A DNA stretch of 54,704 bases, taken from Collinsella sp. An268 (GTDB lineage Bacteria > Actinomycetota > Coriobacteriia > Coriobacteriales > Coriobacteriaceae). Where the stretch lies: contig NZ_NFJH01000012.1 of assembly GCF_002159765.1 (NCBI RefSeq), forward strand, positions 1 to 54,704. The letters are read 5' to 3'. The notes under the pieces were generated by a model. The model saw only the letters and a list, made by a program, of their open reading frames with translations. It ran no database searches and was not told the DNA's origin. Every line of letters starts with the position of its first letter. Within the stretch, counting starts at the first letter, position 1. The translations under genes were made by a program, and so were the position numbers. This document shows positions 31,114-36,119 of the stretch, in pieces.

Positions 31114-31197
31114 TAGCAAGCGGGCGCGGGGACATGGGCGCCCCGATGCGCCCGCAACGACGCGATGTAAAGGTCGCGTCCCTCCCCCGTGCTCGGT

Positions 31198-31267
31198 GTA
31201 AAAGGGTGTGAAAGAGTGTAAAAGGGTGTAGATGAGTGTAGAAGGGTATGAATGAGTGTAAAATGGT
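31198..31267 (+). repeat. Seven exact 10-bp tandem units upstream of the AAA+ ATPase gene
   Basis: Seven consecutive decamers fit GTRRAWGRGT: GTAAAAGGGT, GTGAAAGAGT, GTAAAAGGGT, GTAGATGAGT, GTAGAAGGGT, ATGAATGAGT, GTAAAATGGT, then a partial GTGAG. Odd units tend to end GGGT and even ones GAGT, so there is also a 20-bp period. The array ends 24 bases before the ATPase start and its purine bias contrasts with the GC-rich surroundings. A 10-bp spacing puts every unit on the same face of the helix, which suggests a binding array. Confidence 0.85.
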
Positions 31268-31291
31268 GTGAGTTCTTACGGAGGGAGCCTC

Positions 31292-32428
31292 ATGCCGACC
31301 AATCCATTCAAGCCGACGGCGGGCAAGATGCCGCCTATTCTCATCGGCCGTCAAGCGGTTATCGATGATTTTGCCGAGGGGCTCGATAACGGCGCGGGAG
31401 CCCCGGGGCGGTTGATGCTCATTACCGGTCAGCGTGGATACGGGAAGACCGTTATGCTCACCGAGCTTGGGCGGGTCGCCCGCGAGCGCGGATGGGTCGT
31501 TGTGTCTGAAACCGCATCAGAGGGCATGTGCGCCCGCCTGATTCAAGAGATTACCCCTCCGGGCGTACGGCTAGAGCGTGCGAGCGTCTCGCCCTCGATT
31601 GGCATTCCCGGTGTCGCGACCGCGCAGATTGGCAGCGCGTCGTTCGTCTCGCCAGAGCAAGGGGCGCTCACGTTGCGCAAGGCCATCGAGGCGCGCCTGC
31701 GCAAGGTGGGGAAAGGAAGGGGCATCGCATTCACCATCGACGAGGCGCAGGCGGCTTCGCGCGAGGACATGGTTGCTCTTGCAACGACGTTGCAGCATAT
31801 CATCCGCGATCAAGATATGACAGACGTCCCCGATGACGAGAAGAAGGGCGTGGCGTTTGTGTTCGCCGCACTGCCGTCACTCATGGACGAGCTTCTGAAC
31901 GATAAGGTTCTGACCTTCTTGCGTCGGAGCGTTCGCCATGATCTGGGCGCCGTCCCTTTGCCCGATGTGCGAAGCGCCTTTATAGAGACGGTGCGGATGT
32001 CGGGCAAAACCATTGCGCATGATGTCGCCCTTGAGGCTGCGCGAGCGACAGACGGCTATCCGTACATGGTTCAGCTGGTCGGTTACTACATGTGGCGCAG
32101 CGCGCAGGCACGCGGATCGAATGCGATCGAACGTTGCGATGTGGAAATGGGCGCATCCGATGCCATCATGGCTTTTGAGGAGGCCGTTTGCGCCCCGCTG
32201 TACGACGGACTGACAAGCGCGCAGCGGCTGTTTGTAAACGAGGTCGCTCGCGACGATCCTGAACCTGCGCGCGTGTCAGATGTGGCAAAGCGGGCGCGTC
32301 GGAGTGCAAGCTGGGCGGGGAAGTATCGCGCAAGCTTGATGAAGGAGCGCGTAATAGAGCCCGCCGGGCACGGCCTGGTACGCTTGGTTACGCCTCACTT
32401 TGCGAGCTACATCAAGCAGCGAGGATGA
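31292..32428 (+). CDS. AAA+ ATPase with C-terminal winged-helix-like domain
   Basis: A 378-aa protein. The N-terminus PFKPTAGKMPPILIGRQAVIDDF is the box typical of STAND/ORC-like ATPases. Walker A is LITGQRGYGKTVML (about residues 43-56), Walker B IAFTIDEAQ (about 145-153), sensor 1 VAFVFAALPSL and an arginine-finger-like FLRRSVRHDLG. The C-terminal third contains ARATDGYPYMVQLVGYYMW and a basic helix-turn-helix-like segment (VSDVAKRARRSASWAGKYRASLMKERVI). The ATG at 31292 has GGAGGGAG upstream. It is a stand-alone gene directly behind a 10-bp tandem array, which may be its own binding or regulatory site. Biological role unknown. Confidence 0.85.
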   Translation: MPTNPFKPTAGKMPPILIGRQAVIDDFAEGLDNGAGAPGRLMLITGQRGYGKTVMLTELGRVARERGWVVVSETASEGMCARLIQEITPPGVRLERASVSPSIGIPGVATAQIGSASFVSPEQGALTLRKAIEARLRKVGKGRGIAFTIDEAQAASREDMVALATTLQHIIRDQDMTDVPDDEKKGVAFVFAALPSLMDELLNDKVLTFLRRSVRHDLGAVPLPDVRSAFIETVRMSGKTIAHDVALEAARATDGYPYMVQLVGYYMWRSAQARGSNAIERCDVEMGASDAIMAFEEAVCAPLYDGLTSAQRLFVNEVARDDPEPARVSDVAKRARRSASWAGKYRASLMKERVIEPAGHGLVRLVTPHFASYIKQRG

Positions 32429-32534
32429 GCAGGCCCTCAAGCGCTGGGCTACAATATACGGCGCGCCATCGATCCGACGCGAAACAGAACGGCAATCTTA
32501 AGGGGAATGCCGGCTAGGCGGCGCCCCCGTGTGC

Positions 32535-32540: not shown

Positions 32541-32598
32541 GCCCTCAACGTACAGACGGCGGCAGCAGCCGCCCGCACCTCGAAAGGAGCCACCGGAT

Positions 32599-32667
32599 AT
32601 GTTGAACGTCAACCTCGCCCTCAACAACTGGTGGTGGCGTGATGTGAACTCGGCCGGTCAACGGTGA
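32599..32667 (+). CDS. Tryptophan leader peptide (22 aa, WWW)
   Basis: A 22-codon frame, MLNVNLALNNWWWRDVNSAGQR, starts at an ATG 9 bases after AAAGGAG. Three consecutive Trp codons occupy 32629-32637. Its stop at 32665 is 3 bases after one arm of an antiterminator helix and about 30 bases before a strong terminator. This is the layout of a ribosome-mediated trp attenuator. No trp biosynthesis gene follows; instead comes the S component of an ECF transporter. The frame is too short for ordinary gene finding and has no function other than sensing charged tRNA-Trp. Confidence 0.9.
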   Translation: MLNVNLALNNWWWRDVNSAGQR

Positions 32668-32716
32668 GCCCTTCGCGCCTATAGATTTGCGCAGATACGG
32701 CCCCCGGGTTGACCGG
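32654..32716 (+). promoter_or_regulatory. Antiterminator pairing of the trp attenuator
   Basis: CCGGTCAAC at 32654-32662, inside the last leader codons, is perfectly complementary over 9 bases to GTTGACCGG at 32708-32716, which covers the loop and first four bases of the 3' arm of the terminator. A ribosome stalled on the Trp codons would leave the first strand free. One that reaches the stop codon at 32665 would cover it and let the terminator form. A long 1:2 hairpin was not obvious by eye. Confidence 0.75.
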
Positions 32717-32727
32717 GGGCCGTTTTT
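32699..32727 (+). terminator. Attenuator terminator ahead of the ECF transporter operon
   Basis: A perfect 9-bp stem GGCCCCCGG (32699-32707) / CCGGGGGCC (32713-32721) with loop GTTGA is followed by GTTTTTAG. It lies between the leader peptide and the transporter S component and competes with the antiterminator pairing. Confidence 0.9.
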
Positions 32728-32833
32728 AGTTTTCGCCCCCGCGACCGCACCGACCCCGTTCGCATCACGCGCCTCCACCCCGCTCGTCGAGCAACCCCTC
32801 TCACACACCCCACACCCCGAAAGGTTGATCACC

Positions 32834-33418
32834 ATGACCGAGAACACCACCCCGCGCACCACCACCGCCCAGCCCCGCACCGTCGCCTCCGTCGACCGCG
32901 GCAAACTCGACATCAAGGCCCTCGTCCTGCTCGCCGTGCTCCTCGCCGCCGGCTTCATCCTGAACTTCACGCTCGGCCGTGCCATCGGCGCCGTCTCCGG
33001 CGGCATGATCAGCCCCGAGTTCATCATCTCCGCCTTCTGCCTCACCATCCTCATCGTCCGTCCCAACCTGCTGCAGGCGCTCGTCATCGGCCTCGTCTCC
33101 GCCGCCGTCATCCAGCTCACCACGACGCTGCCCGGCGCCGACTTTGTGGCCGAGGGCATCGCCGCCGTGCTGATGGCCGCCATCGTCAACGCCGGCATGA
33201 AGACGGGCGCCAAGGGCGTCGTGCCGGTGGCGGGCACGTTTGTCTGCACGTTTGTCTCCGGCTTCATCTTTATGGTCATCCGCATGGCGCTCATGCAGTT
33301 CGACATGGCCATCGCCGCCGCCATGCTCCCCGTCGTCGCGCTCACCGCCGTCTTCAACGCCATCCTCGTGGGCGCGCTCTACCTGCCCATCAAGCACGCG
33401 CTCAAGCTCGCCGACTAG
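32834..33418 (+). CDS. trpP: ECF transporter S component, probably for tryptophan (TrpP-like)
   Basis: A 194-aa protein with about 40 soluble N-terminal residues, then five to six membrane helices (from LDIKALVLLAVLLAAGFILNF). The central segment AAVIQLTTTLPGADFVAEGIAAVLMAAIV resembles the TTxxPGG region of TrpP-type substrate-binding subunits. Substrate assignment rests on this similarity and, more strongly, on the upstream Trp-codon attenuator. The ATG at 32834 follows GAAAGG. It is followed by its own ATPase and EcfT genes, so this is a dedicated (group I) ECF module that imports substrate across the cytoplasmic membrane. Confidence 0.8.
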   Translation: MTENTTPRTTTAQPRTVASVDRGKLDIKALVLLAVLLAAGFILNFTLGRAIGAVSGGMISPEFIISAFCLTILIVRPNLLQALVIGLVSAAVIQLTTTLPGADFVAEGIAAVLMAAIVNAGMKTGAKGVVPVAGTFVCTFVSGFIFMVIRMALMQFDMAIAAAMLPVVALTAVFNAILVGALYLPIKHALKLAD

Positions 33419-33556
33419 CACCGGGCGCACGCCCACCCGGTGCGCGCCGCCCCATCGACCAGAACCTGTGCCCCGCGCCCGCCGGCGCGGGGCTCACGGG
33501 TGAGATACCCGTCCCGACAAGTACCGCCAGCGACCCCGACCCCTCGAGAGGACCCC

Positions 33557-35380
33557 ATGCAGCCCACCGAACAGCCGATCATCGAGATGCGCGACGTCGC
33601 GTTCTCCTATGGGGAGGACGCCGACCGGGCGCTCGACGGCATCACGCTCACCATCGCCCCCGGCTCGTTCACGGGCATCATCGGCCCCTCGGGCGCCGGC
33701 AAGTCGACGCTCGCCGCCGTGCTCGCCGGTGCCATCCCGCACCACTTCACCGGACAGCTCTTTGGCGCGACGCTCGTCGAGGGGCAGGACACCTGCGAGC
33801 TCACGCTCACCGACATCTCGCGGATCGTGGGCTCGGTCAACCAGGACATCGATGCGCAGATGGTCGCCTCGGTGGTTGAGGACGAGCTGCTCTTCGGCCT
33901 CGAGAACTTCGGCGTGGCGCACGAGCGCATCGACGAGACCATCGCGGCGGCGCTCGATGCCGTGGGCATCGCCGACCTCCGCGACCGCGAGATCGCCACG
34001 CTCTCCGGCGGCCAGAAGCAGAAGGTCGCCATCGCGGCGATACTCGCGCTCGCCCCGCGCGTGCTCGTGCTCGACGAGCCCACGGCCGCCCTCGACCCCG
34101 TGAGCTCGCGCATGGTCTTCGACGTGCTGCGCGACCTCAACCGCGACCGCGGCATCACGGTTATCGTCATCGAGCAGAAGGTGGCGCTCCTCTCGGAGTT
34201 CTGCGACCGGCTCCTCGTCATGAACGAGGGGCGCGTGGCGCTCGAGGGCACGCCGCACGAGGTCTTCGCGCACGCCGCCGAGCTCCGCGCCATCGGCGTC
34301 GACAGCCCGCGCGTGGCGCGCATCTCGAACAGCCTCGCCCGGCGCGGCCTCTATCCGGCGGGGACCCCGTGTCTCAACGTTGCCGAGGCGGCATCGCTCA
34401 TCGCCCGCACCGTGGGTACCGGCGCACCTCAGGCGGGAGAGCCCGGCTCGGTTCCCGCAGCCGCTCCGCGCACCGGCTCCCCCCACGCCCCCGCGCCGCG
34501 CCCGCATGCGGAGGGGGCGGAGCCCGTGGTCCGCTTCTCGGGCGTGACGTTCGCCTACCCGGGCGGCGGCGCCTCGGTCAACAACCTCGACCTCGCCGTC
34601 TACCCCGGCGAGCTCGTGGGCATCGTCGGCCAGAACGGCACCGGCAAGACGACGGCCACCAAGCTCGTCAACGGGCTTCTGCGCCCGAGCTCGGGCAGCG
34701 TGCGCATCGCCGGCGTGGACACACGCGACGTCCCCGTATCCGAGATCGCGCGCCACGTGGCCACGCTCTTCCAGAATCCCGACCACCAGCTCTGCAAGAA
34801 CACCGTGCGCGACGAGGTCGCCTTTGGCCTCGAACTCCAGGGCGTCCCGCGCGCCGAAGCCGTCTGCCGCGCCGAGCGCGTCATCGAGCGCTTTGGCCTG
34901 CCGGCCGACGAGGCGCCGTTCTCGCTCTCGCGCGGGCAGCGCCAGATGGTCGCCCTCGCCTCCGTCGTGGTGACCGAGCCCGCGGTCATCGTGCTCGACG
35001 AGCCCACGAGCGGGCTCGACTACCGCGAGTGCATGACCGTCATGGAGACGGTGCGCGAGATGGCCGAACAGGGATCCGCCGTCATCATGGTCTGCCACGA
35101 CATGGAGGTCGTCTCCGACTTTGCCGAGCGGCTCGTCGTCATGGCGGACGGCTGCATCCTCGCCCGCGGCGCCACCGCCGACGTCTTCGCCGACGCCGCG
35201 CTCATGGCGCGCGCCCGCGTGACGCCGCCGCAGGTGGTGGAGCTCTCCGCCCGGCTCGCGCAGGAGGTCTCCCCCGCCTTCGCCCACGAAACCGAGGTGT
35301 CCGGCATCGTTGACACCACCGTCGCGCTCGCCGGCAGCCCCGCACCCACCGCCGACCCCGAGGAGGCCCTCCGTGCTTAA
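33557..35380 (+). CDS. ECF transporter ATPase, two ABC domains fused
   Basis: A 607-aa energy-coupling protein. The first ABC domain has Walker A GPSGAGKST (about residue 44), signature LSGGQKQ and Walker B VLVLDEPTAALDP. The second, from about residue 325, has GQNGTGKTT, a modified signature LSRGQRQ, and VIVLDEPTSGLDY with CHDMEVVSD. A Pro/Ala-rich linker of about 40 residues joins them. It corresponds to EcfA and EcfA' in one chain. The ATG at 33557 has GAGAGGA upstream. Its end overlaps the EcfT start by 8 bases, indicating translational coupling. Confidence 0.93.
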   Translation: MQPTEQPIIEMRDVAFSYGEDADRALDGITLTIAPGSFTGIIGPSGAGKSTLAAVLAGAIPHHFTGQLFGATLVEGQDTCELTLTDISRIVGSVNQDIDAQMVASVVEDELLFGLENFGVAHERIDETIAAALDAVGIADLRDREIATLSGGQKQKVAIAAILALAPRVLVLDEPTAALDPVSSRMVFDVLRDLNRDRGITVIVIEQKVALLSEFCDRLLVMNEGRVALEGTPHEVFAHAAELRAIGVDSPRVARISNSLARRGLYPAGTPCLNVAEAASLIARTVGTGAPQAGEPGSVPAAAPRTGSPHAPAPRPHAEGAEPVVRFSGVTFAYPGGGASVNNLDLAVYPGELVGIVGQNGTGKTTATKLVNGLLRPSSGSVRIAGVDTRDVPVSEIARHVATLFQNPDHQLCKNTVRDEVAFGLELQGVPRAEAVCRAERVIERFGLPADEAPFSLSRGQRQMVALASVVVTEPAVIVLDEPTSGLDYRECMTVMETVREMAEQGSAVIMVCHDMEVVSDFAERLVVMADGCILARGATADVFADAALMARARVTPPQVVELSARLAQEVSPAFAHETEVSGIVDTTVALAGSPAPTADPEEALRA

Positions 35381-36119
35381 CGTCATCGACTACGTGCCCG
35401 GCGACACAATCCTCCACCGCCTGAACCCCGTCACCAAACTCACCCTCGCCGCCTCGATCATCGCCGCGACGTTTCTTGCCGACGGCTACGCGGCGCTCAT
35501 CGGCCTGCTGCTCCTGACGCTTCTGCTCGGCGCCTACGCGGGAAGCGCAAGCCGGCTCTTCTCGCTCGTGAAGGTGCTCGTGCCCGTCTCCGCCCTCATG
35601 CTCGTGCTGCAGCTCGCCTTCGTGCGCCACGGCGAGGTGCTCTGGCTCTTCATCACCACCGACGGCCTCGTCTCGGGCACCAAGGCGTGCCTGCGCCTCG
35701 TGGGCGTGGCGCTGCCGCTCGTCCTCATGCTCACCGTCACCAAGACGACGGACCTCGCCAACGCCTGCGTGGAGAAGCTGCACGTCCCCTACCCTTTAGC
35801 CTTCACGTTTACGACGGCGCTGCGCTTCGTGCCCGTCTTCACGCAGGAGATGAACGCCATCATGGAGGCGCAGACCGCGCGCGGCGTGGCGTTTGACACC
35901 AAGAACCCCCTGAAGAAGCTCATGCTCATGCTGCCGGTGTGCGTGCCGCTCCTCGTGACCTCGGTGGGCAAGACGGATGCGACGGCGCTCGCCGCAGAGC
36001 AGCGCGGCTTCTACCTGCGCACCCGCGCGAGCAGCTACCGGCGCTACCCCTTCTGCGCGCGCGACGCGGCCGCGGCGCTCGTCTGCGTGGCGCTCATCGC
36101 CGGCGGCATCGCGCTGTAA
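35373..36119 (+). CDS. ecfT: ECF transporter transmembrane subunit EcfT
   Basis: A 248-aa membrane protein beginning VLNVIDYVPGDTILHRLNPVTKL, with the characteristic HRLNPVTKL coupling start, five to six hydrophobic helices and the ARG-type coupling motif in EAQTARGVAFD, followed by a second such motif in AAEQRGFYLRTRA. The GTG at 35373 is chosen because GAGGAGG precedes it and the family N-terminus starts there. With the fused ATPase and the S component it completes the transporter. Confidence 0.93.
   Translation: MLNVIDYVPGDTILHRLNPVTKLTLAASIIAATFLADGYAALIGLLLLTLLLGAYAGSASRLFSLVKVLVPVSALMLVLQLAFVRHGEVLWLFITTDGLVSGTKACLRLVGVALPLVLMLTVTKTTDLANACVEKLHVPYPLAFTFTTALRFVPVFTQEMNAIMEAQTARGVAFDTKNPLKKLMLMLPVCVPLLVTSVGKTDATALAAEQRGFYLRTRASSYRRYPFCARDAAAALVCVALIAGGIAL

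Follow-up and report, generated by a model that had tools for sequence, protein, structure and literature searches.

A tandem array upstream of an ORC-like ATPase gene

The analysed stretch of Collinsella sp. An268 DNA (contig NZ_NFJH01000012.1, 54,704 nucleotides, hereafter the window) carries about 7.5 direct 10-bp units on the forward strand at positions 31195–31272, and no other part of the window has a 10-bp periodicity as strong. The units conform to the consensus RGTGTRRAAG and, in register from 31195, read GGTGTAAAAG, GGTGTGAAAG, AGTGTAAAAG, GGTGTAGATG, AGTGTAGAAG, GGTATGAATG, AGTGTAAAAT and GGTGTGAG, the last register being partial. The array also has a 20-bp higher-order period, for which the TRF score of 110 is the maximum in the window, versus 73 for period 10. 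The lag-10 self-match of the array was 46/65, compared with 34/65 for the runner-up anywhere in the 54.7 kb, and this value was never reached when the upstream region was dinucleotide-shuffled 100 times. The exact 10-bp spacing of the original prediction is therefore confirmed, and the array is real although slightly longer than had been stated, extending from 31195 to about 31272. The first base of the units alternates between G and A as claimed, but only from the second unit onward. The units had also been described as all facing one side of the helix. With a helical repeat of 10.5 bp, each 10-bp unit is rotated about 17 degrees relative to the one before it, and same-face phasing is approximate only.

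The array stops a few bases 5′ of the ribosome binding site of the ATPase gene (GGAGGGAG, 31280–31287, forward strand, assigned from sequence). This site and the gene itself (31292–32428, forward strand) are as originally described. A possible −10-like hexamer, weak and recognised by inspection only, is located inside the seventh unit (31260–31265, forward strand), and a sigma-70 consensus scan around the array identified no promoter on this strand. On the other side of the array, 3′ of a lipid-kinase gene, the sequence contains the GC-rich hairpin that had been reported next to the array (31120–31155, forward strand, with arms at 31120–31127 and 31148–31155). The hairpin is present, but we rejected it as a component of the array feature. 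It also occurs in the empty site (L199) of a sister genome that lacks both the array and the ATPase gene, and it therefore belongs with the preceding gene.

The gene encodes a protein of 378 residues composed of an AAA+ domain, with intact Walker A (GQRGYGKT) and Walker B (DEAQ) motifs and a match to AAA_16 (E 4.5e-11), followed by a C-terminal winged helix. An AlphaFold2 model built from 27 homologues (pLDDT 85) placed the winged-helix domain at residues about 307–378 (32210–32425, forward strand, block pLDDT 89–97) and its recognition helix at residues 339–351 (32306–32344, forward strand). The best fold matches to this model, over nearly the whole chain, were PAB2304 (Z 23.1) and SSO1545 (Z 21.9). 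The model also matched Aeropyrum ORC2 (1w5t, Z 21.7 over 335 residues), Cdc6/Orc1 (2qby, Z 18.4) and CED-4/NLR ATPases (Z 16–19). In Pfam, AAA_16 was identified in 27/27 members, ORC-CDC6-like or NB-ARC in a few, weak nSTAND/NB-ARC matches in some family members, and winged-helix/MarR matches in few homologues. The predicted fold agrees with the ORC/STAND-like label given to this protein, although the STAND half of the label is tentative. The chain of the window ATPase terminates in the winged helix (residue 378) and has no C-terminal sensor repeats of the kind common among STAND proteins. Since the gene is missing in a sister species, the ATPase is not the essential initiator. PADLOC profiles gave only weak matches to the window ATPase (best E 0.0018, 15.8 bits, partial), and membership of an anti-phage defence system was rejected on this basis. 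A phage origin of the locus was likewise rejected, as IMG/VR returned no match with the patterns used and phage records contained a single distant one.

The array and its gene as one apparent unit

Comparison with sister genome G006 defined the extent of this unit. The flanks of the two genomes are 97–98% identical, and exactly about 1295 bp, containing the array and the ATPase gene only (31183–32477), are missing from G006, where the empty site joins the lipid-kinase gene to a downstream trp leader. Most of the other relatives examined likewise have no ATPase between these two flanks, which lie a short distance apart. The window copy sits between the lipid kinase and a transporter operon, both chromosomal-type genes, and we found no conserved neighbour genes among orthologues outside one species cluster. 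Based on the precise empty site and the unshared neighbours, the array and gene have apparently been gained or lost together. The module edges showed no clear transposon signature, and the search there for terminal inverted repeats or a target-site duplication returned just an unconvincing 8-bp match, CGACGCGA. Candidate second and third empty sites (L002, L016/L134 and L041) gave one-sided flank matches with no clean module edges. In the L041 flank (G006:C14:15363-15620) we observed a dispersed element of about 50 bp that recurs in both orientations at about 20 other places in G006, in the manner of a REP-like family.

The region following the module in the window has features of its own. At 32598–32730, the short ORF MLNVNLALNNWWWRDVNSAGQR precedes a GC hairpin and its T-run, an arrangement that resembles a trp attenuator, and the genes at 32834–36119 encode a substrate-binding membrane protein, a duplicated ABC ATPase and an EcfT-like protein. 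The putative attenuator looks to control this ECF-type, perhaps tryptophan, transporter.

The array also appears private to its gene. Within genome G000, the pattern of the window array matched nowhere but at its own gene, bar one three-mismatch match at chance level, and the pattern of the array in G029 likewise occurs only at its own gene within that genome.

Arrays across the ATPase family

Homologues of the ATPase were identified in 32/60 relatives, with up to eight matches per genome, in 59/396 genomes of the phylum (E ≤ 1e-20) and on 112/72,556 plasmids. A single-protein scan yielded 63 named loci, from Collinsella, Olsenella, Bifidobacterium, Atopobium, Slackia and others. We tested the 160 bp before the gene for periodicity against dinucleotide shuffles in 130 non-redundant members (p ≤ 0.01). 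An upstream array was significant in 81/130, and the best lags clustered at 10, 19, 20 and 9. Within the group formed by Coriobacteriia, Bifidobacteria and close relatives, direct-repeat arrays of 9–10 (or 18–20) bp precede 80 of the 92 homologues, or 86/92 at p ≤ 0.05; six of the 12 that miss the stricter threshold have values of 0.02–0.04. By comparison, control stretches 240–400 bp upstream were significant in 7/125 cases, with lags mostly divisible by three, as for coding DNA, and regions upstream of other genes in the same loci in 10/118, one of which was an ATPase array shared with a divergent gene. The array is therefore a family trait in this group. Only 1/38 more distant actinomycete homologues has a direct array. 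Long palindromes, the usual form of an operator, occupy the place of the array in 8/38 of these distant homologues versus 2/92 in the Coriobacteriia/Bifidobacteria group; those upstream of the distant homologues L062, L064, L065, L112, L117, L129 and L132 are perfect or near-perfect. Among homologues outside Coriobacteriia, L104 and L105 (G309) are preceded by GC-rich 20-bp arrays and L063 (G335) by an array in which a GGTTGGCATCCAG-type unit is perfectly repeated. By inspection, short direct repeats are also present upstream of most of the plasmid-borne copies read. One plasmid homologue, L263 (Bacillus subtilis plasmid CP123774.1, 1544–4919), has an AbiEii/AbiGii-type nucleotidyltransferase gene directly before it and a hypothetical gene and a recombinase gene after it, an arrangement reminiscent of a possible defence or addiction cassette. 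We identified no description of this ATPase family with its array among open-access texts.

Across the family the arrays comprise 3–10 tandem units, and their sequences diverge by subfamily: GGTATAAGTT, TTTCTGCAG in eight copies, TTGTTAGAATTTGCTCAAC, GATTAAAAGC, AAAGGAAAAA and the GC-rich TTGTGCGGCGG. Paralogues within one genome have completely different units, and three array units are almost invariant across many Collinsella genomes. The original prediction had called for unit numbers to be compared, and array length does vary. Four orthologues from different species (L074–L077), the proteins of which are 98–99% identical, have arrays whose lengths differ by multiples of 20 bp, so the arrays expand and contract by two units at once. 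A role for slippage as the main regulatory device is nevertheless unsupported.

The position of the arrays relative to promoter elements is clearest in the FSPxFG subfamily, 12/14 members of which have a TTGAC −35 element directly 5′ of the array, which therefore fills the spacer, −10 and leader region. At the window gene, the array likely overlaps the promoter as well, judging from how closely the ribosome binding site follows the array and from the arrangement in this other subfamily. Such occupation of the core promoter suggests repression.

Co-variation with the recognition helix and proposed role

To relate array sequence to protein sequence, motif similarity was compared with protein identity for 82 array-bearing members. 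Among pairs with AAA+ identity of 40–60%, mean motif similarity was 0.14, 0.76 and 3.68 at low, middle and high recognition-helix identity, respectively. The partial Mantel correlation of the motif with the recognition-helix segment was 0.34 (p = 0.001), although both the motif and the helix track phylogeny, and the partial test corrects only in part for shared ancestry. We also scanned the whole protein in 13-residue windows, each corrected for the identity of the remaining protein. Residues 335–349 ranked first of 177 windows (r 0.32, against a mean of 0.04 and sd of 0.10), and this segment corresponds to the recognition helix of the AlphaFold2 model (residues 339–351). This statistical co-variation is the strongest evidence that each ATPase may read its own array. 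Since arrays of differing sequence match changes in their own recognition helix, the array is very probably a self-binding site. The iteron-like self-binding that had been proposed thus gains strong comparative support, from this co-variation and from the arrays at 80/92 homologues.

Based on these observations, we propose, with a probability of roughly 0.7, that the array is a private tandem operator to which the ATPase binds cooperatively, probably repressing its own gene, and which is inherited with that gene as one module. Each 9–10 bp unit would be read by one C-terminal winged helix, so that several ATPase subunits would occupy adjacent units on one flank of the DNA. Their ORC-like AAA+ domains would provide the contacts between them, and ATP would modulate the assembly. 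The resulting nucleoprotein array would cover the promoter and limit expression. Array and gene would move between genomes as one self-contained module, and joint divergence of array and recognition helix would leave paralogues without cross-talk. Direct binding, cooperativity, ATP control and repression are all predicted here from sequence comparison. Arrays of up to ten units exceed what simple repression needs. In a broader proposal, which we consider possible but doubtful, these loci would form an undescribed, widespread class of single-gene mobile modules, in which an ORC-like ATPase is paired with a cognate array that nucleates an ATP-dependent protein filament serving in cis-maintenance (origin-, centromere- or immunity-like, keeping or spreading the module), array and reading helix having diverged into non-interfering types.

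We weighed this private operator against three other explanations. The ORC/Cdc6-like fold predicted by the model, the presence of homologues on plasmids, with repeats at most of the copies read, and the occurrence of one plasmid copy between parA and parB genes would all fit an iteron- or centromere-like replication or partition element, the ATPase being an ORC-like initiator or partition factor derived from or shared with plasmids and control of its own gene being secondary. The array architecture likewise resembles parC and the pSM19035 heptads (PMC9426499, PMC9499535). However, most of the copies studied are single chromosomal genes at unrelated places, up to eight per genome, with no conserved rep or par neighbours, and the window copy, located between the lipid kinase and the transporter operon, is absent in the sister genome. 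We therefore regard a primary role in replication or partition as unlikely.

The TATAA-like stretches in many units could instead mean that a host regulator, or RNA polymerase acting at repeated −10-like sites, binds the array in place of the ATPase. This is very unlikely, as paralogue units within one genome are wholly different, including the GC-rich L104 and L105 and TTTCTGCAG, the motifs diverge in step with the ATPase's recognition helix, and the arrays in G000 and G029 are private to their own genes. Least probable is that the arrays are neutral tandem repeats, sources of phased A-tract curvature or slippage switches that no protein recognises specifically. The 20-bp shifts in copy number between near-identical orthologues and the in-phase A-richness of some arrays agree with this explanation, whereas the co-variation with the recognition helix and the near constancy of three units in many Collinsella genomes argue against it. 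The same period is moreover found with unrelated sequences, including the A-tract-free arrays of L025, L104 and L105, and phased A-tract curvature was rejected as a common cause for this reason.

The private-operator reading, if correct, gives the family a wider interest. It provides many natural pairs of helix and target array within one protein family, obtained from sequence alone, which makes a winged-helix recognition code directly testable. It also points to a common single-gene module with its own control element in gut Actinomycetota, undescribed as far as our search of the open-access literature reaches, and to a putative bacterial counterpart of archaeal ORC proteins that have turned into self-binding regulators.

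Relation to known systems

A close parallel to the proposed role is archaeal Orc1-2 of Saccharolobus islandicus, a regulator of the DNA-damage response that binds an element in its own promoter via its winged helix (PMC9738581). Like the window ATPase, Orc1-2 combines an ORC-type AAA+ domain with a winged helix, and both its winged helix and its ATPase motifs matter (PMC9738581). Orc1-2, however, relies on a hexamer element and has many target genes, whereas the arrays described here have 3–10 tandem units and, in the two genomes tested, occur at their own gene only; the window protein is bacterial and only remotely related to Orc1-2 in sequence. The order of AAA+ domain and C-terminal winged helix characteristic of Orc1/Cdc6-type proteins is found in the window ATPase, according to its model and fold matches. 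The dyad origin recognition boxes of that type are not, with short direct repeats in their place and long palindromes in just 2/92 homologues. The closest folds, those of the archaeal ATPases SSO1545 (2fna) and PAB2304 (2qen; Z 21.9–23.1), share only 13–14% identity with the window protein. IniR, the mycobacterial activator of iniBAC (PMC5760070), is also actinobacterial and has an SSO1545-like ATPase domain, and a regulator role is proposed for the window protein. Unlike the latter, IniR is an 818-residue protein that acts on another operon and contains both a MalT-like sensor domain and a DNA-binding domain of the SdiA type.

Arrays of comparable architecture are known from plasmid partition systems. 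Omega (ParB) of pSM19035 binds 7–10 tandem 7-bp heptads over its promoters (PMC9499535), and its long array of short direct repeats, with one protein unit per repeat and autoregulation, resembles the system proposed here; omega differs in being a ribbon-helix-helix protein without an ATPase, in having a ParA partner and in serving plasmid partition. In ParMRC plasmids, direct repeats of 10–20 bp are located upstream of the operon (PMC9426499), and the ParR-parC array and its binding protein have split in parallel into families that do not cross-react (PMC9426499), as is proposed here. ParR is a ribbon-helix-helix adaptor that works with the actin-like ParM, with no ORC-like ATPase involved. 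The ribbon-helix-helix fold of omega, MetJ and ParR is absent from the window ATPase, the model of which shows a winged helix. The tandem-operator trait of the same three proteins, short direct repeats over their own promoter, is shared, with arrays upstream of 80/92 homologues and behind a −35 box in 12/14 members of one subfamily. By analogy, the window system may work like the omega, ParR and Orc1-2 autoregulators, but with an ORC-like winged-helix ATPase and a tandem array combined in one solitary gene.
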